From: Mesocricetibacter intestinalis
GTDB taxonomy: Bacteria; Pseudomonadota; Gammaproteobacteria; Enterobacterales; Pasteurellaceae
Length of the DNA stretch: 64,000 bases
Direction: 5' to 3'
NCBI RefSeq assembly: GCF_004363295.1
Contig: NZ_SNYQ01000001.1
Location: forward strand, 1-64,000
This document shows positions 17,062 through 36,366 of the stretch, one piece after another; within the stretch, counting starts at the first letter, position 1; every line of letters begins with the position of its first letter. Below the pieces are notes generated by a model. The model saw only the letters and a program-made list of their open reading frames with translations, ran no database searches and was not told the origin of the DNA. The position numbers were made by a program, and so were the translations under genes.

Positions 17062-17076
17062 CGTTCCCTCCGTTGA

Positions 17077-17829
17077 TTATGCGAGAATAATTTCTAACCC
17101 TTTGCCGCGTAATTTTTCGATTAGTACGGGATCCGCTTCTTTGCCGGTGATCAGCAGATCGATTTGCTCAAGACGGGTAAAGAGCAGGCCGACGGCATTG
17201 CCCAGCTTAGAACTGTCCAATAACACCACCAGCTTTTCCGCCCGCTGTGCAATCTGCTGTTCATAGGAGGCAATAAGCATATCTGTTTTATATAAACCGT
17301 TTTCCGTCAGCCCTTTACCGCTGGTAAACATAATATTGGCGGCGAAGTATTCGGGCGAAGCGTTGATGGAAAAGGTAATTTCCTGATTTTTATTGTATTG
17401 TCCGCCCATAATCACCACATTATCATGGTTGCTTTCAATCAGTCTGTTGGCCAAGGGCAGATAATTGGTGATAATCTGGATAGGTTTACGACGCAGGGCG
17501 GCCCCCAGGGTCATAATTGTGGTTCCGCAGGTCAGGATTACACTTTCGCTGTTTTCACACAGTGCAGCCGCCGCCTGTGCAATACGCTGTTTTTCTTCGG
17601 CGTGCGGAATCTGTACGATATGTTGAGTTAATGGATCCCGCTGCATATGGTGCAGGGATTCCACTCCGTTACGGATACGATGTAATTTACCCTGCTCATT
17701 GAGTTTAGTGATATCCCGTCTGACCGTTGCGGGAGAAACCTGTAAATATTCAATAAGTTCCGCCACAGAAAGAATTTCTTTCTGTGCCAGTAAAGCGAGA
17801 AGCTTTTTGTGCCTGATTTGTTCGTTCAT
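17077..17829 (-). CDS. ulaR: DeoR-family repressor UlaR of the ascorbate genes
   Basis: A 250-residue DeoR-family protein (E. coli UlaR 251). The N-terminal winged helix has the VSPATVRRDITKLNEQG recognition region (about 31-47). The sensor domain in known relatives binds L-ascorbate-6-phosphate and releases DNA. It is the first gene of a leftward ulaR-ulaE-ulaF unit, placed differently from E. coli where ulaR lies upstream of ulaG. It probably controls the ulaG/ulaA divergent region and its own unit. The ligand is inferred from context and overall likeness. Confidence 0.9.
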   Translation of the reverse strand: MNEQIRHKKLLALLAQKEILSVAELIEYLQVSPATVRRDITKLNEQGKLHRIRNGVESLHHMQRDPLTQHIVQIPHAEEKQRIAQAAAALCENSESVILTCGTTIMTLGAALRRKPIQIITNYLPLANRLIESNHDNVVIMGGQYNKNQEITFSINASPEYFAANIMFTSGKGLTENGLYKTDMLIASYEQQIAQRAEKLVVLLDSSKLGNAVGLLFTRLEQIDLLITGKEADPVLIEKLRGKGLEIILA

Positions 17830-17960
17830 GTTGTCATTTCCTTATGATACTATCCATGATTAAGCCTATAAGCCAACACTTGCGGTCAGCGCATAAGCGG
17901 TACTGCTATCGAAAAATAAAGGTCGTTAGTGAGCGTAAAAGTAAAAAAACCGTGAAAACA

Positions 17961-18000
17961 GACCGCACTTTCAACCCGCTACAGGTTGCAAAGTGCGGTC
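17961..18000 (-). terminator. Hairpin made of an inverted uptake-signal pair after ulaG
   Basis: ACCGCACTT at 17962-17970 and AAGTGCGGT at 17991-17999 form an 11-bp perfect outer stem (17961-17971 with 17990-18000). A 5-bp inner stem CAACC/GGTTG sits inside. Leftward transcripts then meet a T-rich stretch (revcomp of 17943-17949). It would separate ulaG from ulaR transcription. Paired inverted uptake signals used as terminators are known in Pasteurellaceae. Confidence 0.75.
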
Positions 18001-18016
18001 GAAATTTTAAAAGTTT

Positions 18017-19108
18017 TTACAGAATCGATTTAAAGGGTACGTTCGGTTCCTGTTCGAAACAGTCGTCGAATCCGCGCGGGTGATGGTACTCGATTAAATC
18101 TTTATCGCGCGGGTAAACGTATTTACCGCCGACTTCCCAGATAAAGGGATGGAATTTGTATTGCAGGCGTTCCTTGCGCATCCGGTACAGGGCGAGAATT
18201 TCATCGGTGCTGGCGGTAAAGTTTGTCCAAATATCGTGATGAACGGGAATCACCACTTTAGCGCGCAAACATTCCGCCATACGCAGTAAATCCACAGAGG
18301 TCATTTTATCGGCGATGCCGACGGGGTTCTCCCCGTAACTCCCCAGAGCTACGTCAATTTGGTAATCTTTGCCGTGTTTGGCATAGTAAATGGAATAGTG
18401 GGAATCGCCGGAATGATAAATGTTACCTCCCGGGGTTTTAATTAAATAGTTTACCGCTTTCAGGCCCATTTCTTCGTCGCTCGGGCAGAGACCGTGCAGT
18501 TCGCCGCCGTTCTGTTCCGCACCGCGGGCCGGCAGGGTTACCAAACAGGTGCGATCGAAAGAATCCAGCGCGATTAATTCCAAATCCTTGATTTTTATAC
18601 TGTCGCCGGGTTTTACCACCAAGCAGCGTTCCGGCGGCACCCCCCATCGGGTCCACATATCGACGCAGTATTGAGGGCCGATAAATTTCACATGATTCAG
18701 CGCAGGATTGTTGATAACGGCGGCTGCTACATTAACATCAATATGATCGTTATGATAATGGGTCGCGATAATCGCATCTACCTGATTGATGGCAAAGGGA
18801 TCCAGTACCGCCACGGAGTTACGCAGATTCGGCTGCAACTTGCGTACTCCCGCCATATTGGCCATTTGATGCCCGCGTACCATATCCTTCACCCGTTTCG
18901 TCGCTTTACCTCGTCCGCACCATAAATCAATGCACAGATTGGCATTACCCGGAGTTTTCAGCCATAGCCCGACGCAGCCCAACCACCACATGGCTACGTT
19001 GCCTTCCGCCACTTCTTCCTGTTCGATTTCTTCATTCAGCCAGGTGCCCCATTCGGGGAAGGTGGATAGAATCCAACTCTCTCTGCTGATTTCGTTTACT
19101 TTACTCAT
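18017..19108 (-). CDS. ulaG: L-ascorbate-6-phosphate lactonase UlaG
   Basis: A 363-residue cytoplasmic metallo-beta-lactamase-fold enzyme opening L-ascorbate-6-phosphate to 3-keto-L-gulonate-6-phosphate (E. coli 354 residues). The metal motif [12 protein letters not shown] (His117, His119, Asp121, His122), the [10 protein letters not shown] segment and the PVHHDIW segment are present. It is transcribed leftward from the divergent ula control region and is separated from ulaR by a hairpin, so it may be monocistronic. Confidence 0.95.
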
Positions 19109-19187
19109 TGCTTATTTCTCTCCTTGAAAATAATCAGCGAGAATCGTAATTGGTCATTTTTTTTTGTAAAACTTACTTTTATTTATT

Positions 19188-19203
19188 TGCGATCTAGATC
19201 GCA
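19188..19203. promoter_or_regulatory. CRP-like perfect palindrome with TGCGA half-sites
   Basis: TGCGATCTAGATCGCA is a perfect 16-bp palindrome with CRP spacing (TGCGA-N6-TCGCA). Both half-sites have C in place of T at the position that distinguishes Sxy-dependent CRP-S sites from ordinary TGTGA sites. It lies 85 bases upstream of the ulaG start. Confidence 0.55.
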
Positions 19204-19327
19204 GTTTATAAAAAATTATGCCGTTTTATATTTTGTAATCTCGACCTATCACCAAATATGTTTACATTTTCCGGCGAAGGATACTTTAGAGTAGTGATTA
19301 TATTTAATTTTTTAAACGAGGGAAAAA

Positions 19328-19343
19328 TGTGATTCTAATCGCA
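19328..19343. promoter_or_regulatory. CRP site upstream of ulaA
   Basis: TGTGATTCTAATCGCA (TGTGA-N6-TCGCA) in an AAA/TTT context matches the CRP consensus with one mismatch. Its centre is about 60 bases before the start point predicted from the adjacent promoter, the usual class I distance. Confidence 0.65.
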
Positions 19344-19360
19344 ATTTATCAATAATAATC

Positions 19361-19389
19361 TTCAAACCCCTTGACCGAGCCGCTATTAT
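19361..19389 (+). promoter_or_regulatory. Candidate ulaA promoter
   Basis: TTCAAA (19361-19366), a 17-base spacer and TATTAT (19384-19389). Weak -35, as expected for an activator-dependent promoter. Spacing to the CRP site at 19328-19343 supports it. Confidence 0.45.
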
Positions 19390-19474
19390 CTGCGGCGGTA
19401 AATTCCCTTATTCTTATTTAATAGTGCGATAGGTTGTTATTTATCGGTTTATACGGAAATATCAGAGGTTTGTC

Positions 19475-21256
19475 ATGGAAATTTTATACAATCTTTTTCT
19501 GCAGTTTAATGTGCAGGTGTTATCCAAAGCTCCTTTACTGCTGGGGGTGGTGGCCTGTATCGGTTATTTGTTGCTGAAGAAAGAGGCAAGCGTTGTTATT
19601 AAAGGGACGATTAAAACCATCGTCGGTTTTATGCTGGTACAGGTGGGAGCGGGAACGCTGGTGCAGGGGTTTAAACCGATAATTGACAATCTGGCCAAAT
19701 TTCATCAATTGACGGGCGCCGTGATCGACCCTTATACCAGTATGCAGGCTACTATTCAGACCATGGGTGAAAACTATGCCTGGGTCGGTTATGCGGTTAT
19801 TCTGGCGTTGGGATTAAATATTCTCTTGGTGATCTTTCGCCGTATTAGCGGCATCCGCACCATTATGCTCACGGGGCATATTATGTTCCAACAGGCGGGG
19901 CTGGTGGCGGTGTTTTATATGATTATCGGCGCTTCCATGTGGGAAACCGTTATCTATACCGCCATAATTATGGCGCTGTACTGGGGCATTTCTTCCAATA
20001 TTATGTATCAGGCTACGCAATCGGTTACCGGCGGTGCGGGTTTTTCTATCGGACACCAGCAGCAATTCGCTTCTTGGATTGCGGTTAAGCTGGCGCCGAA
20101 GCTGGGCGATAAAAAAGATAATGTGGATCAAATGAATTTGCCCAAATGGCTGCATATTTTTCACGACAGTATTTCCGCAACGGCCATAGTGATGTCAGTA
20201 TTTTTCGGGATTATTCTGCTTTCTTTCGGTTTGGATAACCTGCAAGAAATGGCGGGGCAAACCCACTGGTCGATTTATATTCTGGAAACCGGATTGAAAT
20301 TTGCCGTGGCGATTCAGATTATCGTTATGGGCGTAAGAATGTTTGTGGCGGAATTGTCCGAAGCCTTTAAAGGAATCTCCGAACGTTTGATCCCCAATGC
20401 GGTACTGGCTATCGATTGTGCGGCAATTTACGCTTTTTCACCGAATGCCATGGTATTCGGCTTTATGTGGGGAGCGATCGGACAGTTTGCGGCGGTTGCC
20501 CTTCTGCTTGCTATCGGCGCTCCCGTATTGATTATTCCGGGGTTTATTCCGATGTTTTTCTCGAACGCAACCATAGGTGTGTTTGCCAACCATTTCGGCG
20601 GCTGGAAAGCGGTTATGAAAATCTGCTTTGTCATGGGAATTATCGAAGTGCTGGGATCGGCTTGGATTATCCAACTTCTCGCTTCGCAGGGCGCCGTATT
20701 TAACGGTTGGATGGGTATGGCGGATTGGGCGCTGTTTTTCCCGCCGTTATTGCAGGGAATTGTCAGTATTCCGTTCTTTTTCTTTGTGATTTTAGCGGCG
20801 GCGGTGCTGTATATGGCTTATGCGGGTAAGAATTTGCGCGCAGCGGAAGCGGCGGCTCGAGCGGCAGGAAAAACCCTTGAACAAATGGAGGGCTATGGCG
20901 GCGATGACTTGCAGAATCTACAAGCGGATAGGGTTGCTCCCGCTTCGGTTGCCGAGGATATGCAGCGTCCGGTCAGAATTCTAGCGGTTTGCGGCTCGGG
21001 ACAAGGTTCTTCCATGATGATGAAAATGAAAATTAAAGCCTATTTGGATAAACATAACATTCCGAATCAAATGGATTCCTGCGCGGTAACGGATTATAAA
21101 GGCAAGACGGACAACGTGGATATTATCGTATGCTCCCATCATCTTGCCGATGAAATCGTAGTAGGCGAACGGATTTCTGTGCTGGGCGTACAGAATATGC
21201 TCAATCCGAACTCTTTCGGCGACGAGCTACTGGCACTTATCCATAAGTATAGATAA
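19475..21256 (+). CDS. ulaA: Ascorbate PTS permease with EIIC and EIIB fused (UlaA-UlaB)
   Basis: A 593-residue inner-membrane protein. Residues 1-450 are the UlaA-type EIIC transporter with about eleven membrane segments, including the [20 protein letters not shown] segment. A polar Ala/Gln-rich linker (about 455-495) joins it to a complete EIIB domain (about 497-593) with the phosphorylated Cys506 in [10 protein letters not shown]. In E. coli UlaA (465 residues) and UlaB (101 residues) are separate proteins. The fusion has no frame disruption. It imports L-ascorbate as the 6-phosphate using UlaC and HPr. The start ATG at 19475 has AGAGG. Confidence 0.95.
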
Positions 21257-21321
21257 TTAAAGAGAATTATTGTTTCACCCGATATTTTCCCGGAAATATT
21301 TTTAATAAAACAGGAGAACTT

Positions 21322-21789
21322 ATGCTAAAGGAATCTCTGCTTGAGAACGATTCGATTAAACTGAATCAACAGGCTGCAGACTGGCGACAGGCAATTAAAA
21401 TCGGTACGGATTTATTGGTGGATTCCGGTGCGGTAGAACCGCGCTATTATGAGGCCATAGTGCGGATGATCGAACAGATGGGCCCCTATATTATTCTTGC
21501 TCCCGGCCTCGCCATGCCCCATGCCCGACCGGAAAACGGTGTTCTCAAAACCGCTTTCGCACTGGTAACCTTAAAACAACCGGTTTGGTTTGAGGGGGCA
21601 GACGAACCCGTATCCGTGCTATTGACTCTGGCGGGTAGCGATGCGGAAACTCATCTGGAAGGCATTGTCGAAATCACCCGGATATTTGACGATCCGGAAG
21701 CGGACAGCGGGGTAAATATTGATAAATTTTTAGCCTGCAACAGCAAGCAGGAGGTATTGCAAGTGATTGAGCAAGCTCTGGAGAATTAA
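21322..21789 (+). CDS. ulaC: Ascorbate PTS EIIA component UlaC
   Basis: A 155-residue cytoplasmic EIIA of the mannitol/fructose superfamily (E. coli UlaC 154). The phosphorylated His67 lies in LAMPHARPE, as in the family. It passes phosphate from HPr to the EIIB part of the UlaA fusion. It follows ulaA by 65 bases with an AGGAGAAC ribosome site. Confidence 0.94.
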   Translation: MLKESLLENDSIKLNQQAADWRQAIKIGTDLLVDSGAVEPRYYEAIVRMIEQMGPYIILAPGLAMPHARPENGVLKTAFALVTLKQPVWFEGADEPVSVLLTLAGSDAETHLEGIVEITRIFDDPEADSGVNIDKFLACNSKQEVLQVIEQALEN

Positions 21790-21844
21790 TCTTAGCAAAA
21801 ACTGATGGGAAGATTGAGCAGCGAATAAACGGGGGATACCGGTT

Positions 21845-21886
21845 TCCGCCCCCATAATTTCATGGTAATGGAAGTCATGGGGCGGA
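21845..21886 (+). other. GC-rich hairpin between ulaC and ulaD
   Basis: A 10-bp stem (21845-21855, one bulge, with 21877-21886) with a loop of about 21 bases and no T-run after it. Within a 208-base gap in an otherwise co-directional operon it may be an mRNA processing or stabilising element that sets ulaAC above ulaD. Confidence 0.45.
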
Positions 21887-21955
21887 GGAGGTTACGGGCG
21901 GTTTCAACCTGGTTTCAGCTCATCTTCTCAGCCTAGAAAAAGTATTTATTTTTTA

Positions 21956-21964
21956 ACCGCACTT
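21956..21964 (-). repeat. DNA uptake signal sequence upstream of ulaD
   Basis: Exact ACCGCACTT (minus-strand AAGTGCGGT) 34 bases before the ulaD start. Confidence 0.85.
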
Positions 21965-21997
21965 TTGTGCATTAACCGAACGGAAAAGGATATCGAC

Positions 21998-22669
21998 ATG
22001 AGTAAACCTTTACTTCAAATCGCATTGGACGCATTAAGTTTGGAAAAAGCCTTGTGCGATGCCAAACAGGCGGAAGCCTGTGTGGAAATTATTGAGGTCG
22101 GCACCATTCTGGCCTGTGCGGAGGGAATGAAAGCGGTAAGTTGCTTGCGGGCATTGTATCCGCAGCATATTTTAGTTTGCGATTTAAAAACTACCGACGG
22201 CGGAGCTATTCTGGCTAAGATGGCTTTTGAAGCCGGTGCGGACTGGCTGACGGTGTCCGCCGCCGCTCACCCGGCGACCAAAGCCGCCTGCCAAAAGGTG
22301 GCGGAGGAATTTAATTTAACCCGACAGCTGAAAGTACCGAAAGAAATTCAAATCGAAATTTACGGTAACTGGACAAATCAGGATGCCAAGGACTGGCTGA
22401 CCTGCGGAATCACCCAGGCGATTTATCATCGCTCCCGCGATGCGGAGCTGGCGGGTAAAGGCTGGAACGAGGAAGATATCGAACGCATGAAAAGCTTATC
22501 CGACTTAGGTCTGATGCTGTCGATTACCGGCGGTATTGTGGCGGAGGATATTCATTTATTCAAACAAATTAAAAATGTAAAAGCCTTTATTGCCGGTCGT
22601 TCATTGCTGGGAGAGCGGGGGATATGGGAGGCGCAGGCGATTCGGAGGGAAATCGATAAATACTGGTAA
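21998..22669 (+). CDS. ulaD: 3-keto-L-gulonate-6-phosphate decarboxylase UlaD
   Basis: A 223-residue (beta/alpha)8 enzyme of the OMP-decarboxylase suprafamily. It makes L-xylulose-5-phosphate and CO2 from 3-keto-L-gulonate-6-phosphate. The DxKxxD motif is intact in CDLKTTDGG, the catalytic Asp in ALDALS and Glu in IIEVG are present, and the phosphate-binding TGGI and FIAGRS loops are near the C-terminus. An upstream ATG at 21965 is out of context; ATG 21998 has AAAAGGA and matches the family N-terminus. Its product feeds UlaE and UlaF. Confidence 0.94.
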   Translation: MSKPLLQIALDALSLEKALCDAKQAEACVEIIEVGTILACAEGMKAVSCLRALYPQHILVCDLKTTDGGAILAKMAFEAGADWLTVSAAAHPATKAACQKVAEEFNLTRQLKVPKEIQIEIYGNWTNQDAKDWLTCGITQAIYHRSRDAELAGKGWNEEDIERMKSLSDLGLMLSITGGIVAEDIHLFKQIKNVKAFIAGRSLLGERGIWEAQAIRREIDKYW

Positions 22670-25366: not shown

Positions 25367-26125
25367 CTATACCAACAGTAGGCGGATATCCATATTACGA
25401 ATGGCTTCCTGAGCGTTGGGAAGTAATTCCCGGTCGCAGACAATACAGTCGAATACACTTAGCGGGTAAAGCAAAAAGGTGGCGACTTTACCGTATTTGG
25501 AAGAATCCGAAACCAGAACTTTGCGTTTACTGACTTCGACAATGGCTTTCTTGACCGGGAGTTTATTTTCATCAGGCGTAGTGAGGCCTTTTAAATTCCA
25601 AGAGGAAGTGGAAATAAAGGCCGTATCAATGGAAAAATTATGTAAAAAACGGGCGGCCAGTTCGCCGACGGAGGAGCGGTTACGCTTATTGATCGAGCCG
25701 CCGATATGAATGAGTTCGCAGGCACTGTTAACCATCAGAAAGTTAGCAATTACAAAGTCGTTAGTGATTATACGCAAATCGCTGCGATGGCTAATCTGCT
25801 TGGCAATCTCCAGGGTAGTGGTACCTGCGTCCAGATACAGAGTGGAGGCTTCCGTAATGAGTTTGGCCGCTTCAATACCGATTTTTTCCTTCTGACGCTG
25901 AAACAGCAGCGATTTATCATCATGGGTCGGTTCGGCGGACAAATGCTCTAATAATTGAACCCCGCCCGAAACGGAAACCACTTTTCCTTCTTCTTCTAAT
26001 TTCTGAATATCCCGCCGAATCGTCATATGCGAAACCTGCATAATCTGCACCAATGCGGCGATACTGATAATGTTCTGTTGGTTAATCAGGTTCAGAATCT
26101 TTTTTTGTCGTTCGGCGGGAATCAT
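25367..26125 (-). CDS. DeoR-family regulator of the adjacent tetronate operon
   Basis: A 252-residue DeoR-family protein. The N-terminal winged helix has MQVSHMTIRRDIQKLEEEG at about 29-47, followed by the sugar-phosphate sensor domain with DAGTTTLEIA near residues 99-108. It diverges from the ltnD operon across a 204-base region, the same arrangement as H. influenzae HI1009 next to HI1010-HI1015. It most likely represses that operon until a tetronate or its phosphate binds. The ligand is inferred. Confidence 0.88.
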   Translation of the reverse strand: MIPAERQKKILNLINQQNIISIAALVQIMQVSHMTIRRDIQKLEEEGKVVSVSGGVQLLEHLSAEPTHDDKSLLFQRQKEKIGIEAAKLITEASTLYLDAGTTTLEIAKQISHRSDLRIITNDFVIANFLMVNSACELIHIGGSINKRNRSSVGELAARFLHNFSIDTAFISTSSWNLKGLTTPDENKLPVKKAIVEVSKRKVLVSDSSKYGKVATFLLYPLSVFDCIVCDRELLPNAQEAIRNMDIRLLLV

Positions 26126-26329: not shown

Positions 26330-27235
26330 ATGACGAAATCATCTTATTCCGTTGCTGTGATAGGGCTGGGTGCTATGGGCATGGGAGCGGCACTTTCTTG
26401 TTTACGGGCGGGGCTGACAACCTATGGTATCGACTTAAATACCGCGGCATTAGCCAGGTTGAAAGCGGCGGGTGCTACCGCGGTGGCACAGGATGCCGGA
26501 GCCTTTGCTGAAAAATTGGATGCGGTTTTATTACTGCTGGTTAATGCTGAACAGATTCGGAGTGTACTGTTCGGAGCAAACGGGCTGGCGGATAAATTAA
26601 ATAAAGGTACCGCGCTGATGCTCTCCTCCACCATCTCGGTGCAGGAGGTGAAAGAAATTTCACAAAAATTAACAGAAAAGGGCTTAATCGTACTGGATGC
26701 CCCTGTTTCAGGCGGTGCGGCAAAGGCCGCCAGCGGGGAAATAACGGTAATGGCGGCCGGCAGTGAAGCTGCTTTTAACAAGTTGCAGCCGATGCTGACC
26801 GCTGTAGCGGCGAAAGTTTATAACATAGGTGCGGAAATCGGTTTAGGCGCGACGGTTAAAATCATTCATCAGTTGCTGGCCGGCGTGCATATCGCCGCGG
26901 CGGCGGAAGCCATGGCACTGGCGGCGAAAGCCGGTATTCCGTTGGCTTTGATGTATGAGATCGTTACTCATGCGGCCGGTAATTCCTGGATGTTTGAAAA
27001 CCGAATGAAACATGTAGTCGAGGGGGATTATAGTCCCCTATCCATGGTTGATATCTTCGTTAAAGATTTGGGTCTGGTTACGGATACGGCCAAATCTTTG
27101 CACTTCCCGCTGTATCTGGCGAATACGGCGCATTCGATGTTTACTGCAGCCAGTAACGCCGGTTACGGCAAGCTGGACGATAGTGCGGTGATCAAAATTT
27201 TTAACGCGGTTTCTTTGCCGCAGAAAGGAGAATAG
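26330..27235 (+). CDS. ltnD: L-threonate dehydrogenase LtnD
   Basis: A 301-residue beta-hydroxyacid dehydrogenase oxidising L-threonate to 2-oxo-tetronate with NAD. The Rossmann motif GLGAMGMGAA is at 12-21, the substrate motif DAPVSGG at 123-129 and catalytic Lys177 in GATVKIIHQ. The name rests on the shared neighbourhood with OtnK, OtnC, OtnI and DenD, for which this chemistry was shown in H. influenzae and other bacteria; 3-hydroxyisobutyrate dehydrogenase is the older family label. GGAGGAAAAG precedes the ATG. First gene of the operon. Confidence 0.92.
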   Translation: MTKSSYSVAVIGLGAMGMGAALSCLRAGLTTYGIDLNTAALARLKAAGATAVAQDAGAFAEKLDAVLLLLVNAEQIRSVLFGANGLADKLNKGTALMLSSTISVQEVKEISQKLTEKGLIVLDAPVSGGAAKAASGEITVMAAGSEAAFNKLQPMLTAVAAKVYNIGAEIGLGATVKIIHQLLAGVHIAAAAEAMALAAKAGIPLALMYEIVTHAAGNSWMFENRMKHVVEGDYSPLSMVDIFVKDLGLVTDTAKSLHFPLYLANTAHSMFTAASNAGYGKLDDSAVIKIFNAVSLPQKGE

Positions 27236-27238
27236 GGA

Positions 27239-28492
27239 ATGGCGGATAAAAAATTAGGCGTGATTGCCGATGATTTTACCGGGGCTAGCGATATCGCCGG
27301 TTTTTTAAGCGAGAACGGATTACAAACAATCCAAATAAACGGCGTTCCTTTACAGCCATTACCGAATCCAGCCGATGCTCTGGTTATCAGTCTGAAATCC
27401 CGCTCCAATCCGCCTCGGGAAGCGGTGGAACAATCTTTACAGGCGTTACGCTGGTTGCAGAAAAACGGTTGTAATCGTTTTTATTTTAAATATTGTTCGA
27501 CCTTTGATAGTAGTGCGGAAGGTAATATCGGCCCCGTAACCGATGCTTTGCTGGATGCGTTGCAACAAGATTTCACCGTAATCTGCCCGGCCTTACCGAT
27601 AAATGGGCGTACGGTTTTTAACGGCTATTTATTTGTCGGCAATCTTTTACTGAACGAGTCCGGTATGCAGAATCATCCGATTACGCCGATGAAAGATGCC
27701 AGTCTGCTGCGCTTAATGGATGCGCAGGCACAGGGAAAAACCGGTTTGGTGGCGTACCCCGAGGTTATATGTGGAACGGAATCTATTAAAACCTGCTTTG
27801 CGCGTTTAAAAGCGGAGGGATACCGCTATGCGGTGGTAGATGCGACGGAGAACTCTCAGCTCGCCCTACTGGCTGAGGCGGTAAAAGATTTCCCTCTGGT
27901 AACCGGCGGTTCAGGACTGGCGGCTTATATTGCGCGGAGCTATGACCGGCAGGCGCAGAATCTGCCGGCGTTAATTCCCGCCCCGGGCAAAACCGTTATT
28001 TTATCCGGTTCATGCTCGCTGATGACCAATCAGCAGGTGAATTATTACAAGGCGTTGGCTCCGAGCCTGGCATTAGATGCCGAGCAGGCATTGCATAATC
28101 CGGATTACGGCGACGAGCTGTATCGCTGGGTGCTTGCCCATGCGGAACACAAACCGGCACCGATGATTTACGCCACAGTGGAGGTTGCAGCACTGAAACA
28201 GATTCAGCAGCGTTTCGGTGTAGCACAAATCAGCCGAGCAATTGAAGAGGTTTTTGCCTGCCTGGCCGTAAAACTAAAAGCGGCGGGTTTTACCAATTTT
28301 ATCGTCGCCGGCGGAGAAACCTCAAGCATTGTGGTGCAGCGACTGGGGCTTTCGGCTTTTTATATCGGAAAGCAGATTGCGCCGGGCGTTCCCTGGCTGA
28401 AAACATTGGACGCACCTGTTTTTCTGGCCTTGAAGTCGGGAAACTTTGGCACAAAGGATTTCTTTGAAGTTGCACAGGGTATGACGTTATGA
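27239..28492 (+). CDS. otnK: 3-oxo-tetronate kinase OtnK (former DUF1537)
   Basis: A 417-residue kinase of the family formerly DUF1537, which phosphorylates 3-oxo-tetronate at carbon 4 with ATP. The N-terminal IADDFTGASDIAG motif (residues 10-22) marks the substrate domain. The C-terminal nucleotide domain has SGSCS (about 259-263) and AGGETSS (about 358-364). Its start follows ltnD by 3 bases and its end overlaps otnC by 4 (ATGA). Confidence 0.93.
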   Translation: MADKKLGVIADDFTGASDIAGFLSENGLQTIQINGVPLQPLPNPADALVISLKSRSNPPREAVEQSLQALRWLQKNGCNRFYFKYCSTFDSSAEGNIGPVTDALLDALQQDFTVICPALPINGRTVFNGYLFVGNLLLNESGMQNHPITPMKDASLLRLMDAQAQGKTGLVAYPEVICGTESIKTCFARLKAEGYRYAVVDATENSQLALLAEAVKDFPLVTGGSGLAAYIARSYDRQAQNLPALIPAPGKTVILSGSCSLMTNQQVNYYKALAPSLALDAEQALHNPDYGDELYRWVLAHAEHKPAPMIYATVEVAALKQIQQRFGVAQISRAIEEVFACLAVKLKAAGFTNFIVAGGETSSIVVQRLGLSAFYIGKQIAPGVPWLKTLDAPVFLALKSGNFGTKDFFEVAQGMTL

Positions 28493-29121
28493 GGGAAGAG
28501 GAGCAAAAACTACAAATGGTCGCTCTAGCCCGTTCATTGTTTGAGCGCGGTTATAGTGTCGGCGGGGCGGGCAACCTGTCTGTCCGCCTCGATAGAGAAC
28601 GTATTCTGGTAACCCCTACGGGTGCCTCGCTGGGACGTTTACAGGCTGAGCGTCTGGCGGTGGTTGATATGCGAGGAAACCTGCTGAGCGGGGATAAGCC
28701 TTCGAAAGAGTCGGTATTTCATCTAGCCATATATCGCAATAATCCGGCGTGTGGGGCTATCGTGCATCTGCATTCCACTTATTTAACCGCACTATCCTGT
28801 CTGCAGGGGTTGGATCCGGATAATGCGATTCGAGCCTTTACCCCCTATTATGTGATGCGGGTCGGTAAGCTGGCGGTGGTGCCTTATTATCCACCGGGCG
28901 ACGGCAATATTGCACGCGAACTGGGAGAACGGGCAAATCGGGGTAAAGCTTTTCTGTTAGCCAATCACGGCGTTGTGGTATGCGGCGAAAATTTGGTCGA
29001 TGCGCTAGAAAATACGGAAGAATTGGAGGAAACCGCAAAACTGTATTTTATTTTACAGGGACATAAAATCCGCTATCTCACAGCAGCGGAAATCAAGGAT
29101 TTAGAACACAGAGGGAAATAG
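28489..29121 (+). CDS. otnC: 3-oxo-tetronate 4-phosphate decarboxylase OtnC
   Basis: A 210-residue class II aldolase/adducin-family enzyme that decarboxylates 3-oxo-tetronate-4-phosphate to dihydroxyacetone phosphate and CO2. The GGAGNLSVR substrate loop (about 22-30), zinc motif HLHSTY (about 92-97) and NHGVVVCG (about 163-170) are visible. The start overlaps the otnK stop. It is related to UlaF (15512-16207) in fold; the context separates their roles. Confidence 0.93.
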   Translation: MREEEQKLQMVALARSLFERGYSVGGAGNLSVRLDRERILVTPTGASLGRLQAERLAVVDMRGNLLSGDKPSKESVFHLAIYRNNPACGAIVHLHSTYLTALSCLQGLDPDNAIRAFTPYYVMRVGKLAVVPYYPPGDGNIARELGERANRGKAFLLANHGVVVCGENLVDALENTEELEETAKLYFILQGHKIRYLTAAEIKDLEHRGK

Positions 29122-29123
29122 AT

Positions 29124-29900
29124 ATGCCTAAATTTGCAGCGAATTTAACCATGATGTTTAACGAAGTACCTTTTCTGGAACGGTTTGAAGCGGCCGCCGT
29201 CGCCGGTTTTAAATATGTGGAATATCTCTGGCCTTATGATTATCCGGTTCAGCAATTAAAAGCGAAACTGATTGAAAACGGTTTACAGCAGGTTTTATTT
29301 AACACCTCCGGCGGCGATATCGGAGGGGGCGAATGGGGAATATGCGCGCTCCCCGGCCGGGAAGAGGAAGCACGGCGCGATATTGACCGCGCACTTGAAT
29401 ATGCTATCGGGCTCAATTGTCCGCGGGTGTTGTTGATGGCAGGTGTGGTTCCGCCCGGCGAAGATAAAGAGGAATATCGGCGTACCTTTATTGATAATGT
29501 GCGTTATGCGTCGAAGCAATATCGGCCGTACGGTATCGATATTATGCTGGAGGCCTTAAGCCCCGAAGTCAAACCTAACTATCTTTACAGCAGCCAGTAT
29601 CAGGCCTTGGAACTGGCGGAACTCATAGATTGCGATAACGTTTACATTCAGCTGGACTATTATCACGCCCAAAATGTGGACGGAAACCTCAGTCGCCTGA
29701 CCAATAGATTGAAACAGCGGCTCGGTCATATTCAGATCGCTTCCGTCCCGGATCGCCATGAACCCGATGAAGGGGAAATCAATTATGTCCATCTGTTCGG
29801 GTTGTTGGATGCCATCGGCTATGAGGGCTTTGTCGGCTGCGAATATCAACCGCGTACCACAACGCAAGCCGGTCTGGGTTGGTTTGAACAATACAAATAA
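29124..29900 (+). CDS. otnI: 2-oxo-tetronate isomerase OtnI
   Basis: A 258-residue TIM-barrel isomerase of the hydroxypyruvate-isomerase (Hyi) family, converting 2-oxo-tetronate to 3-oxo-tetronate. Conserved metal and acid residues are visible in MLEALSPEVKPNY (Glu), QLDYYHAQ (Asp, His) and GCEYQPR (Glu). The order ltnD-otnK-otnC-otnI is that of H. influenzae HI1010-HI1013. It starts 2 bases after otnC. Confidence 0.92.
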   Translation: MPKFAANLTMMFNEVPFLERFEAAAVAGFKYVEYLWPYDYPVQQLKAKLIENGLQQVLFNTSGGDIGGGEWGICALPGREEEARRDIDRALEYAIGLNCPRVLLMAGVVPPGEDKEEYRRTFIDNVRYASKQYRPYGIDIMLEALSPEVKPNYLYSSQYQALELAELIDCDNVYIQLDYYHAQNVDGNLSRLTNRLKQRLGHIQIASVPDRHEPDEGEINYVHLFGLLDAIGYEGFVGCEYQPRTTTQAGLGWFEQYK

Positions 29901-29986: not shown

Positions 29987-30943
29987 ATGAAAATTGTAAT
30001 TACCGGTGCTCAGGGATTTTTAGGCCGGCGTTTAACCGAAACCTTGCTTAGCCGTACGGATATTAATATTCGCAAATTAATTCTGATCGATGTAGTTAAA
30101 CCTGTCGTCGCACAGGATGATCCGCGCCTGCAATGGGTACAAATGGATCTCAGTAATCCGGACGGGCTGGAAGGGCTTATTGATGGCGAAACCGATGCGG
30201 TTTTCCATCTGGCGGCAATTGTTAGCAGTCATGCCGAACAGGATCCGGATTTAGGCTATGCGATAAATTTTTTGGCCACTCGGAATCTGCTTGAAGTATG
30301 CCGTGGCAATAACCCGAATATTCGTTTTATTTTTTCCAGTTCACTGGCGGTTTTCGGCGGTGAGCTACCGGCGCAGATTCAAAATCATACGGCACTCACG
30401 CCGCAATCGACTTACGGTACGCAGAAAGCCATGTGTGAACTGCTGATTAATGATTATAGTCGTAAAGGTTTTGTGGACGCTTTATCCGTACGTTTACCGA
30501 CCATTTGTATTCGCCCGGGCAAACCGAATAAGGCAGCCTCCTCTTTTGTCAGCAGCATTATGCGCGAACCTTTACACCAACAAAGGGCGATTTGTCCCGT
30601 GGCACCGGAATTACGACTCTGGCTATCCAGCCCGAATACGGTTATTGACAATTTTATCCATGCCTTAACTCTACCGAGCTTGCCGCAGCGCAGCTGGCAC
30701 GTGATAAATCTGCCGGGTTTCAGTATCAGTGTGCATCATATGCTAGAAGCGCTGGCCGCCATTAAAGGCGAGGAGATTTTAGGTTATATCGACTTTGAAT
30801 TTGATGCGGCGATTAACGATATCGTGGCCAGCTGGCCGGCGGAAATCAACTGCGAGCAGGCGTTAAGCCTCGGATTTAAAGCGGATTCTTCCTTTAAGGA
30901 GGTTATCAACCAGTTTATTCGCTGCGATATGCGGTTCGAATGA
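29987..30943 (+). CDS. denD: D-erythronate dehydrogenase DenD (SDR family)
   Basis: A 318-residue extended short-chain dehydrogenase with NAD motif GAQGFLG (7-13) and catalytic Tyr143-x3-Lys147 in STYGTQK. In the H. influenzae pathway DenD oxidises D-erythronate to 2-oxo-tetronate, joining the LtnD branch. It starts 86 bases after otnI, with TAAGGAGC before the ATG. Confidence 0.9.
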   Translation: MKIVITGAQGFLGRRLTETLLSRTDINIRKLILIDVVKPVVAQDDPRLQWVQMDLSNPDGLEGLIDGETDAVFHLAAIVSSHAEQDPDLGYAINFLATRNLLEVCRGNNPNIRFIFSSSLAVFGGELPAQIQNHTALTPQSTYGTQKAMCELLINDYSRKGFVDALSVRLPTICIRPGKPNKAASSFVSSIMREPLHQQRAICPVAPELRLWLSSPNTVIDNFIHALTLPSLPQRSWHVINLPGFSISVHHMLEALAAIKGEEILGYIDFEFDAAINDIVASWPAEINCEQALSLGFKADSSFKEVINQFIRCDMRFE

Positions 30944-30990: not shown

Positions 30991-32457
30991 ATGTTCGGAC
31001 TTCCCACACCGGTTATCGGTTTAATTATTGCGGTATTCGTTCTTGTGGTTCTAGTGTTAAGAACGCGCGTTCATGCATTTATTGCCATGCTAATTGCTGC
31101 GGCGATTGCGGGTATTATCGGCGGAATGAGCGTTAGCGATACGCTCGGTGCCATTAGCAAAGGATTCGGCGGCACCTTAGGCGGAATAGGTATCGTTATC
31201 GGCCTCGGGGTTATGATGGGCAGTATTCTGGAAGTTTCCGGTGCCGCGGAAAAAATGGCTTATAGTTTTATAAAATTCTTAGGCAAGAAAAAAGAGGAAT
31301 GGGCGTTGGCGATTACCGGTTATGTGGTCAGCATTCCTATTTTTGTTGATTCGGCTTTCGTGATTTTGTATCCCGTGGCTAAGGCGCTGGCGAAAAAAGG
31401 GAAACGTTCCCTGCTAACCCTGGGGGTCGCCCTTGCCGGCGGTCTGGTGGTTACCCATCATACTGTTCCTCCTACTCCGGGGCCTTTAGGGGTGGCGGGC
31501 ATATTCGGGGTTGATATCGGCGCTATGTTGCTGGTAGGCATGGCCTTTGCTCTGTTCCCTGTTATCGGTATCGTATTATATGCGCAATGGCTGGATAAAA
31601 AATATCCCTCCTTTAACCAGGAAACTTTTAGCCGGGAAGAATTAAAACAGAAATACGAGGATTATATCGAAAAGGGCAAAAACAAAGATTTACCGGGGCT
31701 GGGACTGTCTCTGTTGCCGATTGTGCTGCCCATCGGTCTGATTTTTATTAAGGCATTATTTGATCTGGCGATTAAAACCAGTCCGCAAATAGCAGAAGCG
31801 GCGCTGTATAAATTGTTCGCCTTTATCGGTCATCCGATGATTGCCCTGGCAATCAGCGTATTAATCGCCGTTTATACCTTATTACCGAAAGCGGATAAAA
31901 ATACCACCGCACTTCATCTGGAAGAGGGGGTGAAAACCGCCGGGATTATTTTGTTGGTTACCGGTGCGGGCGGTGCGCTGGGTGCGGTGCTACGCGAAAG
32001 CGGAGCCGGTACCGCTCTGGCCGAACAAATTGCCGCCTTGCCGATTTCACCGATTCTGATCCCCTTTATCGTTTCTACCTTGGTACGTTTTATTCAGGGC
32101 TCGGGTACTGTGGCGATGATTACCGCCGCATCTATTTCCGCTCCTATTCTAATGCAAATTCCGGGCGTTAATATGCTGCTTGCCGCACAGGCGGCAACCA
32201 TGGGTTCATTGTTCTTCGGGTATTTTAACGACAGCTTATTCTGGGTGGTTAATCGTATGATGGGGATTAATGATGTTGGCAAGCAAATGATCGTTTGGTC
32301 GGTACCTACCACCGTCGCCTGGGCTAGCGGCGGCTGTCTGGTGATTCTATCCAATCTGATATGGGGGAACGACGGTTCAGTGTTCGATTTAATTTTACCG
32401 CTCGGCGTTCTGGCCGCCATTTTGCTGTACGTTAAAATTCAGAATAGGGGCGACTAA
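30991..32457 (+). CDS. GntP-family hydroxy-acid permease, probably for tetronates
   Basis: A 488-residue inner-membrane carrier of the gluconate:proton symporter family with about twelve to fourteen membrane segments and the typical THHTVPPTPGPLG motif near residues 153-165. Position after denD matches HI1015 in H. influenzae, so tetronates are the likely cargo. A 47-base gap to denD and a 44-base gap to the following esterase keep it in the same operon. An exact uptake signal lies inside. Substrate not proven. Confidence 0.88.
   Translation: MFGLPTPVIGLIIAVFVLVVLVLRTRVHAFIAMLIAAAIAGIIGGMSVSDTLGAISKGFGGTLGGIGIVIGLGVMMGSILEVSGAAEKMAYSFIKFLGKKKEEWALAITGYVVSIPIFVDSAFVILYPVAKALAKKGKRSLLTLGVALAGGLVVTHHTVPPTPGPLGVAGIFGVDIGAMLLVGMAFALFPVIGIVLYAQWLDKKYPSFNQETFSREELKQKYEDYIEKGKNKDLPGLGLSLLPIVLPIGLIFIKALFDLAIKTSPQIAEAALYKLFAFIGHPMIALAISVLIAVYTLLPKADKNTTALHLEEGVKTAGIILLVTGAGGALGAVLRESGAGTALAEQIAALPISPILIPFIVSTLVRFIQGSGTVAMITAASISAPILMQIPGVNMLLAAQAATMGSLFFGYFNDSLFWVVNRMMGINDVGKQMIVWSVPTTVAWASGGCLVILSNLIWGNDGSVFDLILPLGVLAAILLYVKIQNRGD
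31906..31914 (-). repeat. DNA uptake signal sequence inside the GntP-family gene
   Basis: Exact ACCGCACTT (minus-strand AAGTGCGGT) in coding sequence. Confidence 0.75.
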
Positions 32458-32501
32458 TAACATGGGGTTTCCCCGTTAACCTTTTTTAATCAGAGGTAGT
32501 T

Positions 32502-33845
32502 ATGCGGAAATGGATTTTCCTTTACTTATTCCTGCCGGCTTTGTCCGCTGTCGGTGAAATAAGCGCGGATAGCCCTCAGATTCCTGCTTGGGTGGGGGTA
32601 ACCCTGCTCAGTGAAGTAACGGAGCAGGGACAACGAATCAATGCGGTTGCGCTGGAATATGAATCCGATGTGTTATCCGGTAGTAATTTAGGACATTTGT
32701 ATCGGGTTGCTACCAGTTTGGATCAGCAGGGGCAGGAACCCCGTTCGGTGTTAAAAGCCTATGTCAATGATAAGGCGGAAACCGCTTATCAAGCAAAAAC
32801 CGGCAGATTTGTAATTATTGAACTGGATAGCAGGGATAACAATGCCGCCCTGTATAGCCTGCGCAAGGAAAACGAACGACCGATGAAATTTAGAGCCAGG
32901 GATAGCGATGGCAAGATTATTGAGATCGAAAAAGTCCAGAGGAATAATGTGCCGAAGTTTTATCATGCGCGGTTACAATACCATATTGAACAAAAGGGAC
33001 TACTCAAACTGAGTAACGGCAAGACTTTAGACGGCTTTATAGTTAGTCAGAGTGCAGCTAAAAATAAGGTAAAAAATCGCTATATTGATAATTTCATCGC
33101 ACATCAGGTGGCATCTGGCGATCCTCATAATATTCTGCGCTATCGTTTATATACGCCGACGGGCAGCGCCAAGTCCTATCCGCTACTCCTGTTTTTGCAC
33201 GGTTCGGGCCAAGTAGGTTCGGACAATCTGGCTCAGTTGCTGTCTAGCAAAGGAGCCACCTTTACCTTGGCATATGAGCAAGGTTTTGTTCTGGCGCCGC
33301 AATATTCTTCCGTATTCGATCCTTTTGATGACGCAAACAAGGGCCAGCGTGGCGGGATTCACTGGCAGAGCGATAACCGGATGGATTTAGTGTTGCAGAT
33401 GCTTGATCGGACGCTAGCGAAGAACCCTACCATTGATAAACGACGGATTTATCTGGTAGGACTGTCGCGTGGGGCGGAAGGCGCACTAAAACTCTTGCAA
33501 AAACGACCGCACTTTTTTGCCGGTGCACTTCTAATTAGCGGACGTGAGGCGGATTCTCTGGAATGGATTGACGGCAATGCGACGCCGGCGAGTTTGGCTC
33601 CGCTTAAAAACGTACCTATATGGTTTTTCCACAGTAAACAAGATCAGGTAGCGCCGGTGCAGGGTTCACGGATTAATTATCGGATTCTGTCAGCATTAGG
33701 AGCGCCCTATGTGAAATATACCGAATTCAGTTTTATTCGGGCCGGGGATAACGGCATTATCAATCACAATCCGCATAATAGCTGGGATGCGGTATTCAAT
33801 AGCCCGGAAGTGATTACTTGGTTACTAGCACAGAGATTACCCTGA
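32502..33845 (+). CDS. Exported alpha/beta hydrolase (esterase-like) of unknown substrate
   Basis: A 447-residue protein with an N-terminal signal peptide (about residues 1-22) and so probably periplasmic. Residues 30-190 are a beta-rich domain that may be the Ig-like N-terminal domain of some carboxylesterases. The alpha/beta hydrolase domain runs from about 205 to the end. Visible parts are the oxyanion motif LFLHGSGQ (about 229-236), nucleophile Ser322 in GLSRGAEG, acid Asp381 and His422 or His425 in HNPHNSWD. I do not know the substrate. It is the first of three hydrolase genes that follow the tetronate permease in the same operon. Confidence 0.85.
   Translation: MRKWIFLYLFLPALSAVGEISADSPQIPAWVGVTLLSEVTEQGQRINAVALEYESDVLSGSNLGHLYRVATSLDQQGQEPRSVLKAYVNDKAETAYQAKTGRFVIIELDSRDNNAALYSLRKENERPMKFRARDSDGKIIEIEKVQRNNVPKFYHARLQYHIEQKGLLKLSNGKTLDGFIVSQSAAKNKVKNRYIDNFIAHQVASGDPHNILRYRLYTPTGSAKSYPLLLFLHGSGQVGSDNLAQLLSSKGATFTLAYEQGFVLAPQYSSVFDPFDDANKGQRGGIHWQSDNRMDLVLQMLDRTLAKNPTIDKRRIYLVGLSRGAEGALKLLQKRPHFFAGALLISGREADSLEWIDGNATPASLAPLKNVPIWFFHSKQDQVAPVQGSRINYRILSALGAPYVKYTEFSFIRAGDNGIINHNPHNSWDAVFNSPEVITWLLAQRLP
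33506..33514 (-). repeat. DNA uptake signal sequence inside the exported esterase gene
   Basis: Exact ACCGCACTT in coding sequence, followed by TTTTTTGCC. Its presence suggests the gene has resided in this lineage for some time. Confidence 0.75.
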
Positions 33846-33855
33846 GGAGGAGTCG

Positions 33856-34530
33856 ATGAACTATCAGCTTCTGTCTTATCCCCTGGATATTGCCGATCCC
33901 GGTTTTCCCGGGGAACCTACCCTAAGTATTCAAAAAAGTACCCGTATTGCCGACGGAGATATGTATAACAGTTCGATCGTACATTTATTCAATCATTTCG
34001 GTACGCATTTTGATGCGCCGAATCATTTCAACCCCAAAGGGGCTACCATCAGCGAACTGCCACTGCAGCGTTTTATTTATGAGCGACCGCTGTTATTGGA
34101 TATTCCTAAATCTGCGGGGGAGATGATTCAGCCAATTGATCTGGAAATTCATTTGAGCGCTATCCGCCGGGCGGATTTTCTGATGATACGCACCGGGTTG
34201 GAAAAGCTGCGTATGCAGCATCCTAATCAATATGCGACTAAAGGTGTAGCAGTCAGCGTTCAGACGGCTCGTTATTTGATGGAACATGCGGCTAATCTGA
34301 AAGCACTCGGATTTGATTTTATTTCACTTGCCTCCCCTGACCACCCTGAACAAGGGATAAAGTCGCATCAAATTATGCTAGGTATGTTCAGCCATCATTT
34401 CATCTGTATTATTGAGGATATGAAGCTATCTGCAGTGGATAAAACTCGTTTGAAACGTATTTTTGCCATGCCCTTGTTGATCCGAGGGATCGACAGCGCA
34501 CAAGTCTGTATTTTAGCCGAGAGTGAGTAA
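33856..34530 (+). CDS. Cyclase-family metal-dependent hydrolase
   Basis: A 224-residue cytoplasmic protein of the cyclase/kynurenine-formamidase-like family. The signature HxGTHxDxPxHF is present (His47, Thr50, His51, Asp53, His57), which binds zinc or manganese. A later IIEDMKL (about 186-192) likely supplies the conserved Glu. The family hydrolyses amides, lactone- or isatin-type rings. It lies 10 bases after the exported esterase with GAGGAGTCG before the ATG. No tryptophan-degradation gene is near, so kynurenine formamidase is unlikely; a lactone or ester substrate is more in keeping with the operon. Confidence 0.85.
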   Translation: MNYQLLSYPLDIADPGFPGEPTLSIQKSTRIADGDMYNSSIVHLFNHFGTHFDAPNHFNPKGATISELPLQRFIYERPLLLDIPKSAGEMIQPIDLEIHLSAIRRADFLMIRTGLEKLRMQHPNQYATKGVAVSVQTARYLMEHAANLKALGFDFISLASPDHPEQGIKSHQIMLGMFSHHFICIIEDMKLSAVDKTRLKRIFAMPLLIRGIDSAQVCILAESE

Positions 34531-34534
34531 TTCT

Positions 34535-36337
34535 ATGCAAAAAAGCGACAATAGTTACTGGTTAGCCATTTTGTTCTGTTGTTTAAGTTTTATCGGCGCC
34601 TATTTGAGTTCCTTGGTCGAGCGGGATTTCGGGCGAATCGAGATCAGCCGTTTTAGCTTTATAAGCGAAGAAATGCAACCGATGCACGCTAAATTATATC
34701 GCCCCCTGTCGGCAACGCCACAGCACCCTAAACCGGGTTTGCTGGCGTTACACGGTTATCAGAGTGATAAGGAAGCCGCCGCCACTTTCGGCGCATTGGA
34801 ATTAGCAAAGCGAGGTTTTGTGGTATTGGCGATCGATCACTTCGGTCATGGTTATTCGACCGCTTTGCCTGCTTCGGATAAAAATATGAGCGGTGCTAAT
34901 AACGGTTACCGTTATTTGAAAAGCTTGCCTTTTGTCGATAAAGAAAGGTTGGGTATATTCGGACATTCCACCGGCGCCCTAAATGCGATACGAGTAGCGA
35001 AGCTTAATCCCGATCATAAAGCGGTAAACGGTCTAAGCGCTAACGGCGGCGACGAAAGTTTACATAATTATCTGCTGACTCAGGGGCTATTTGAAGAAAT
35101 AGGCGGCTATCGGGAAAAAATCTTCCCGGTTAAAGCGTTGGTGAATAATCAAAAACGTCTGGCAGCTTTTTCATTGTCAGCAGATGACATATTGCAATGG
35201 AATCATACCTATGGTGATTTTGCTGATGGTTCCGCGCGGCGAGCGGCATTGGTAAAGGGCACTCATTTGGGGGTAATGATTGCCGCACACAGCAATAAAG
35301 AAGCGATTTTATGGTTTAATCGGGCACTACAGGATGGTAAACAAACGGAGGATTGGATTGACCCCGAACAACAAACCTATTGGTATAAAGAACTTGCCGG
35401 GTTGGTTGCGCTTGCAGCGGCATTGATTTCCTCCCTGTTTGTAGCGAATGCCTTATTAAGCACGGCATATTTCTCCTCGGTAACTAAACCTGTAACAAAA
35501 CAGACCGCAGTTTCCAGCTCACAATGGCGGATTTTTGCATTTATCAATTTGCTTGCCACGATGATTTTGTATCCGTTATTTACCCGCTGGGGCGGCGCTA
35601 ACGAACCTATTGCTTCATTATTGCCCTTTATGCCTTTGGAAATGGGCAATGGCATTATTACCTGGCTAACGGTCAGCGCCCTAATTAATCTGATTTTTTT
35701 CTTATGCTGGAAAAGAGGCAACTCGGTTTGTTTGCGTCGGTTCGGGGTGCTGAGTGATTCTCCCGAAATATCTACCATTGTACTCGCAGGGCGTTATTTA
35801 TTACTTAGTGTGCTGTTAATCCTTTGGTTGTATTTCATTGCGACTTTTATCTATCAGTATTGGGGGGCGGAACTACGCTTTTTGTGGCCGTTGCTGAAGC
35901 CGTTGAATGCAGAACGATTTAATTTGCTTTCGCAATATTGGCTGCCGATTTTAGTGTTTTTCTTCGTTTTTAACGGATTGATCGTTTCCGTGCAGATGAA
36001 GCAGAAAAACCGCGCTTCTTTTAGCGCGACTTTAGCAAGCTGGACGCTGAATACGGCGATTTTTGCCGCCGGCGGCTTAATTCTGCTGTGGTTGCTGCAT
36101 TTCGTGCCGGCTTTTATGCAGATTGGCCCGGGTTTTGATGTTATCGGTCTACCGCAATTCGGCGGGCGTTGGATGATGATGCTGGCGGTGATTATTCCGC
36201 AGTTTATTGTATTCGGCTTGCTCCATCACTGGTGCTATTTGAAAACGGGCTATATTTATCTCGGCGTATTTTTCACTTCAATGCTGATGACTTGGATTAT
36301 GGTCGGTGGGCAGGTTATCGGGCGTTTTTTGGCTTGA
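34535..36337 (+). CDS. Membrane-anchored alpha/beta hydrolase with a polytopic C-terminal half
   Basis: About 600 residues. One N-terminal membrane segment (about 9-29) leads to an alpha/beta hydrolase domain (about 40-280) with HGYQ (His73), DHFGHG (101-106), nucleophile Ser145 in GHSTGALNA and a candidate His244 in GTHLG. The second half has about seven further membrane segments. By topology the hydrolase domain may face the periplasm. A GTG at 34523, overlapping the previous stop region, is an alternative start; neither has a strong ribosome site. Function unknown. Last gene of the operon; the stop codon lies inside a terminator-like hairpin. Confidence 0.82.
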   Translation: MQKSDNSYWLAILFCCLSFIGAYLSSLVERDFGRIEISRFSFISEEMQPMHAKLYRPLSATPQHPKPGLLALHGYQSDKEAAATFGALELAKRGFVVLAIDHFGHGYSTALPASDKNMSGANNGYRYLKSLPFVDKERLGIFGHSTGALNAIRVAKLNPDHKAVNGLSANGGDESLHNYLLTQGLFEEIGGYREKIFPVKALVNNQKRLAAFSLSADDILQWNHTYGDFADGSARRAALVKGTHLGVMIAAHSNKEAILWFNRALQDGKQTEDWIDPEQQTYWYKELAGLVALAAALISSLFVANALLSTAYFSSVTKPVTKQTAVSSSQWRIFAFINLLATMILYPLFTRWGGANEPIASLLPFMPLEMGNGIITWLTVSALINLIFFLCWKRGNSVCLRRFGVLSDSPEISTIVLAGRYLLLSVLLILWLYFIATFIYQYWGAELRFLWPLLKPLNAERFNLLSQYWLPILVFFFVFNGLIVSVQMKQKNRASFSATLASWTLNTAIFAAGGLILLWLLHFVPAFMQIGPGFDVIGLPQFGGRWMMMLAVIIPQFIVFGLLHHWCYLKTGYIYLGVFFTSMLMTWIMVGGQVIGRFLA

Positions 36338-36366
36338 AACGCCCGATGTTATTGATGTTTTACTTT
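36317..36366 (+). terminator. Terminator-like hairpin at the end of the tetronate/hydrolase operon
   Basis: An 11-bp perfect stem (36317-36327 with 36337-36347), 9-base loop containing the end of the last gene, then a T-rich but interrupted tail. Confidence 0.55.

Follow-up and report, generated by a model that had tools for sequence, protein, structure and literature searches.

Why should an operon for the degradation of L-threonate and D-erythronate end in three hydrolase genes? The question is raised by a 64,000-nucleotide stretch of the 2.21 Mb genome of Mesocricetibacter intestinalis (Pasteurellaceae; contig NZ_SNYQ01000001.1, positions 1 to 64,000), referred to here as the window, in which an operon beginning at 26330 has the order ltnD-otnK-otnC-otnI-denD-gntP-EST-CYC-MEM. 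EST, CYC and MEM are our names for the three hydrolase genes. Tetronate operons with ltnD, otnK, otnC, otnI, denD and a permease were reportedly described by Zhang et al. in 2016 (cited in PMC12540250). An earlier examination of the window from its letters alone (the sequence-only reading) had proposed that the three additional genes supply this pathway with free acids. We could confirm that observation in part, and its interpretation is partly supported: the tetronate operon does carry an additional hydrolase module, which is conserved, matches the proposal for the most part and probably releases L-threonate. With moderate confidence, we regard EST, CYC and MEM as the front end of the L-threonate operon, where they would free L-threonate from an ester or lactone.

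All three genes lie on the + strand behind the GntP-type permease gene, with gaps of 44, 10 and 4 nucleotides, as originally described. EST occupies 32502 to 33845 (447 amino acids), CYC 33856 to 34530 (224 amino acids) and MEM 34535 to 36337 (600 amino acids); the last gap holds for the ATG start of MEM, the listed open reading frame (ORF) beginning at a GTG at 34523. A terminator-like hairpin of 13 pairs (36316 to 36348, + strand) overlaps the end of MEM.

We searched 140 Pasteurellaceae genomes for otnK, EST, CYC and MEM. otnK was found in 62 of the 140, near-full-length EST in 41, CYC in 37 and MEM in 27, counts that are phylogenetically non-independent. All 41, 37 and 27 genomes fall within the otnK set, and the 78 otnK-negative genomes yielded no near-full-length EST and no match to CYC or MEM at the thresholds used. 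MEM was always accompanied by CYC (27/27), all three genes were present in 25 genomes, and the starts of EST and otnK were 4.1 to 8.3 kb apart in 41/41 genomes. The EST count was reduced from 57 matching genomes by dropping 11 that held only relatives of 27-36% identity, taken as paralogues, and by leaving out five with a fragmented or split gene (G035, G095, G098, G131 and G138), two of which, G098 and G131, have no otnK. Three ESTs with an internal stop (G036, G092, G120), partial or interrupted CYC genes (G062, G065, G088, G092) and a MEM in two far-apart pieces (G043) were counted as present. The sequence-only reading had asked whether the three hydrolases recur beside ltnD/otnK in other genomes; they do, and their recurrence with otnK in Pasteurellaceae bears out a grouping beyond chance.

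Forty Pasteurellaceae loci were then compared; as they were chosen around EST, CYC or MEM hits, they show arrangement and not frequency. In them, 97/97 EST, CYC and MEM ORFs are on the strand of otnK. Gene order varies: in one genus, four loci (L074-L076 and L082) have CYC-MEM inserted between otnI and denD, and elsewhere CYC follows otnI, gntP or EST. That the order shifts while the linkage holds speaks against simple inheritance as its sole cause.

EST was expected to be an exported alpha/beta-hydrolase with Ser322, Asp381 and a histidine. Its N-terminus is hydrophobic and of exported type, and an alignment of 20 sequences, among them that of the window, shows no variation at Ser322, Asp381 and His425, the last giving the position of the histidine. 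EST also carries an EstA_Ig_like domain (86.6 bits, cut-off 26.7), which together with the alpha/beta-hydrolase and its Ser/Asp/His places it with the EstA-type esterases. The cut-offs of two polyhydroxybutyrate depolymerase models were not reached (NF050058, 62.6 vs 150 bits; TIGR01840, 32.4 vs 107.85 bits). The esterase with an Ig-like domain of PDB 3doh, which we take to be a Thermotoga-type enzyme, resembles EST in profile over two stretches (31-115 and 157-448) and in fold (TM 0.69 by query), but EST is only ~25% identical to it, has an exported-type N-terminus and is situated inside a tetronate operon.

CYC was likewise correctly assigned to the cyclase-family metal hydrolases. Its metal motif HxGTHxDxPxHF occupies residues 47-58 and is kept across 18 aligned sequences (again with that of the window) except for one Ser in place of Thr50; the protein scores 75.1 bits against a gathering score of 23.1 for PF04199 and is without a signal-like N-terminus. 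CYC shares family score and HxGTHxDxPxH with the PF04199 enzymes kynurenine formamidase and isatin hydrolase, but differs from them in operon context and stays far below the arylformamidase cut-off (TIGR03035, 61.9 vs 223.05 bits). A MIP-family channel gene was found in the operon at 7/19 loci with type-2 CYC vs 0/21 others, one of these 21 holding a CYC fragment, and such a channel would suit the entry of an uncharged lactone. The channel gene adjoins type-2 CYC in L090, L091, L092, L095, L096, L099 and L101, and is shortened in L101.

MEM has nine hydrophobic segments, of which one is N-terminal and precedes the hydrolase domain and eight follow it, in agreement with the membrane hydrolase with a polytopic C-terminal half that had been postulated. 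A GHSTG motif (Ser149) and His248, both numbered from GTG 34523, are invariant in 11 sequences from three phyla, a conservation that disfavours MEM as a transporter only. Its soluble part exceeds the Pfam gathering scores of the alpha/beta-hydrolase superfamily models Hydrolase_4 (32.2/27), Peptidase_S15 (28/23) and AXE1 (26.2/21), and MEM just exceeds that of the broader FrsA-like model (22.9 vs 22), with only 27.5 bits against the 477 of the NCBIfam equivalog for FrsA esterase. The soluble part of MEM shares the alpha/beta-hydrolase fold with EST, and the module comprises two folds, not the three unrelated ones first claimed. The polytopic half matched no Pfam or NCBIfam model, and the MEM family appears to be uncharacterised in the libraries searched. 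The structure model has a mean pLDDT of 61 and does not settle the catalytic acid; we confined fold matches to the soluble domain for this reason, and in this low-confidence model it resembles cutinase/PETase-type hydrolases. In the three predicted outer loops 20/58 columns are invariant, vs 0/52 in the four inner loops, with loop limits taken from model helices and hydrophobicity. From this difference, and a topology based on hydrophobicity, charge and the same model, the hydrolase part probably lies outside and acts on the periplasmic face.

The operon itself indicates what the hydrolases may deliver. Its five core enzymes, all encoded on the + strand, exceed their curated NCBIfam cut-offs, identifying an L-threonate/D-erythronate degradation operon: L-threonate dehydrogenase LtnD (26330 to 27235; NF043037, 447.3 bits, cut-off 350), the DUF1537 3-oxo-tetronate kinase OtnK (27239 to 28492; NF043035, 581.6 bits, cut-off 350), OtnC (28489 to 29121; NF043034, 296.9 bits, cut-off 250), 2-oxo-tetronate isomerase OtnI (29124 to 29900; NF043033, 379 bits, cut-off 325) and D-erythronate dehydrogenase DenD (29987 to 30943; NF043036, 458.3 bits, cut-off 325). 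The GntP-type permease (30991 to 32457, + strand; PF02447, 472 bits) is just above the gntP subfamily cut-off (TIGR00791, 305.8 bits against 292.75). In these six genes the operon is like known tetronate operons, such as the Brucella vdtR operon (PMC10580937); it differs in EST, CYC and MEM, none of which was found in 40 other Pseudomonadota loci. ltnD is present in 40/40 Pasteurellaceae loci, and at E 1e-70 nine genomes with EST, nine with CYC and five with MEM have no match to denD. LtnD and OtnI are described as serving L-threonate (PMC12540250). Since denD is missing from some genomes with the module, the shared product should be L-threonate, and the product side of the pathway points to this acid rather than erythronate. 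Hydrolysis of lactones or esters to a free acid is still the best reading, as had been proposed, with erythronate no longer favoured as its product.

A module serving the lactones of D-erythronate and L-threonate equally, as the sequence-only reading had it, is a minority possibility, denD being present in 32/41 EST genomes; it sits poorly with the denD-less EST, CYC and MEM genomes, which keep ltnD. In operons without denD and the first gntP, their place is taken by a distantly related gntP of a second type, ~30% identical (L072, L084, L085, L088, L094, L097, L098, L099, L103, L108), and both types occur in L086 and L091.

A release of L-threonate gains some breadth from the occurrence of the module outside Pasteurellaceae. 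An alignment scan of the genome collection with MEM gave 24 loci, including Cardiobacterium valvarum, two Lautropia metagenome-assembled genomes, one Treponema and three Actinomyces. The Cardiobacterium and both Lautropia loci have the operon with CYC and MEM, although in one Lautropia locus (L131) otnI was found by tblastn only and MEM is in two pieces. In a tree of 53 OtnK rows, Cardiobacterium/Lautropia OtnK is sister to that of Pasteurellaceae (100/100) and stands apart from the remaining Pseudomonadota in the sample, the pattern expected if the operon had been transferred. In Treponema, a dehydrogenase, MEM, CYC and another DUF1537 kinase stand in a row. The Actinomyces loci have an SMP-30-type lactonase (SGL) beside MEM in 3/3 cases, a DUF1537 kinase in 2/3 and a threonate-dehydrogenase-like gene in 2/3, and no CYC was found in them. 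This SMP-30/gluconolactonase-like protein (PF08450) belongs to a Pfam family other than that of CYC, and may be its functional equivalent; neither of the two Actinomyces proteins examined (0/2) has a signal-like N-terminus. In Cardiobacterium, the EST slot holds a different exported-type hydrolase (Abhydrolase_1). Support from this replacement is thin because homologues of it occur in 2/40 other tetronate loci (L178 and L198), one without a signal-like N-terminus. The Cardiobacterium hydrolase, together with the Actinomyces lactonase in loci without CYC, hints at a cytoplasmic lactone as what CYC opens. Beyond these loci the proteins are scarce: among 349 Pseudomonadota genomes, MEM was found in one (the window's own, E 1e-60) and EST in two (both Pasteurellaceae, E 1e-40), against 67 with otnK.

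From the computed linkage, catalytic motifs, predicted compartments and pathway genes, we infer a class of substrate, an order of steps and a transport of the product by GntP. MEM, a membrane platform whose hydrolase part would face outward, and EST in the periplasm would cleave an L-threonate ester or lactone outside the cytoplasmic membrane, and GntP would import the freed acid. Leftover lactone or ester reaching the cytoplasm, in some relatives perhaps via the MIP-family channel, would be opened by CYC, and LtnD, OtnI, OtnK and OtnC would convert L-threonate to dihydroxyacetone phosphate. The three compartments originally assigned to the hydrolases fit these predictions: EST has its exported-type N-terminus, the hydrolase of MEM is predicted outside and CYC has no signal-like N-terminus.

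A possible source of the substrate lies next to the operon. Threonate is a breakdown product of vitamin C, and the ula regulon takes up intact ascorbate by a phosphotransferase system (PTS), via ascorbate 6-phosphate and not threonate. In the window, a ula-type (L-ascorbate) gene set spans 15512 to 22669, with ulaF-ulaE-ulaR-ulaG on the - strand and ulaAB-ulaC-ulaD on the + strand; only tkt and a phosphatase gene, both named by eye, stand between it and the tetronate operon downstream. UlaR, UlaG, a fused ascorbate PTS IIBC and 3-dehydro-L-gulonate-6-phosphate decarboxylase exceed curated cut-offs, two ribulose-5-phosphate epimerases are named generically, and IIA is just below its cut-off (173.6 vs 187). 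Both systems would draw on the same vitamin C supply, and they adjoin in the window. ulaG is within 15 kb of otnK in 5/36 genomes with both genes, vs 0.47 expected at random placement, an expectation that treats genomes as independent; the five belong to genera g1, g12 and, for three of them, g29. Parts of ula also adjoin the operon in L092 and L104. One genome without otnK (G098, contig C48) has an EST fragment 2.6 kb from ulaG, which looks like the remnant of a joined ula-tetronate region.

The adjacent ula genes suggest vitamin C as the source of the threonate substrate. Oxalyl-threonates and cyclic oxalyl-threonate are given as oxidation products of dehydroascorbate in PMC11066805. We tentatively propose, at rather less than even confidence, that the operon uses oxidised vitamin C: MEM and EST would hydrolyse cyclic oxalyl-threonate and oxalyl-threonates outside the inner membrane, CYC would open threonolactone, and the L-threonate would pass to glycolysis, in a route that would complement ula and would have spread among bacteria of the mouth and upper airways. 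That threonolactone may be a natural substrate is a proposal of this analysis. A search of the open literature, subscription papers excluded, turned up neither a bacterial esterase for oxalyl-threonates nor a hydrolase from a threonate operon.

Vitamin C would be irrelevant if the hydrolases acted on a larger ester, such as an acylated or phenolic sugar-acid conjugate whose acid part happens to be tetronate. We consider this improbable, though not negligible. The likeness of EST to the general esterase 3doh and the cutinase/PETase-like fold of the soluble part of MEM in the low-confidence model would suit such a substrate; the ula genes that adjoin the window's operon, the proximity of ulaG to otnK in two further genera and the Actinomyces loci, with their lactonase and no CYC, argue against it.

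Several results weigh against the release of L-threonate from an ester or lactone, or against the source proposed for it. None of the three proteins EST, CYC and MEM reaches the cut-off of any NCBIfam model that it matched, so their sequences name no substrate. Near-complete EST is absent from 21/62 otnK genomes and MEM from 35/62, which makes the module optional, and several copies are broken. The Treponema dehydrogenase exceeds the cut-off for 2-hydroxy-3-oxopropionate reductase (399.4 vs 397) and not that for threonate dehydrogenase, and the kinases of Treponema and of one Actinomyces locus (L127) are far below the tetronate-kinase cut-offs, so the acid used there may differ; a further Actinomyces locus, L128, shows neither kinase nor dehydrogenase. 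Not only the three hydrolases but also SGL and MIP were absent, at E 1e-5, from the vicinity of the 40 other tetronate loci, which represent 40 of the 65 non-Pasteurellaceae genomes in which otnK was matched (35/40 supplied OtnK for the tree). Nor is the presence of ulaG associated genome-wide with otnK in Pasteurellaceae (36/62 vs 46/78). Lastly, in 18/36 relatives the gap between gntP and EST contains a terminator-like hairpin whose stem measures at least 8 bp.

This gap had been read as free of any terminator, a claim that did not hold. The window itself has a weak 6-bp hairpin with a T run behind it at 32462 to 32476 (+ strand), in addition to the longer stems of the 18 relatives. Of the 36 gaps in relatives, 35 were long enough for the hairpin test, and shuffles of these and of the window's gap averaged 0.17. 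Scanned in the same way, the denD-gntP (0/29), otnI-denD (0/22) and CYC-MEM (0/12) gaps had none and the EST-CYC gaps one, of 5 bp (1/13). A promoter together with a terminator between 32457 and 32502 had been named as evidence that would count against the cassette; the hairpin is there, and a consensus scan of the gap found no promoter-like site. Partial read-through at the hairpin would result in less EST than permease, and the recurring hairpin (32458 to 32501 and the 18 relatives) may act as an attenuator controlling how strongly EST is expressed. It is on these hairpins that one could regard EST and the following genes as a separate unit of unrelated function, near the tetronate genes by chance. 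We think this quite unlikely: the otnK-negative genomes, at the thresholds given, are devoid of near-full-length EST, CYC or MEM, CYC and MEM precede denD and gntP in L074-L076 and L082, and MEM is again found near DUF1537 kinases in other phyla. A role in detoxifying reactive lactones or esters instead of feeding carbon, with MEM mainly a transporter that has a hydrolase domain, would accommodate the large, conserved polytopic half of MEM, but is equally improbable, given how tightly the module is linked to the pathway and that the operon already has a GntP permease.

A front end that frees L-threonate would matter beyond this locus. What is known of the tetronate pathway concerns free acids, and conserved hydrolases that give it access to esters or lactones would broaden its substrate range; the role in the module would also give the MEM family a function. 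If the vitamin C proposal is true, bacteria of the mucosa would exploit not only intact ascorbate but also what its oxidation yields.

Upstream of ltnD, a divergent gene on the - strand (25367 to 26125) encodes a YgbI-like DeoR-family regulator with DeoRC and HTH_DeoR domains, which scores 348.7 bits with the YgbI model, below the cut-off of 400. In three relatives (L086, L088 and L106), the operon is followed downstream by genes for a regulator of diacid type and a further GntP-like transporter, both named by eye.

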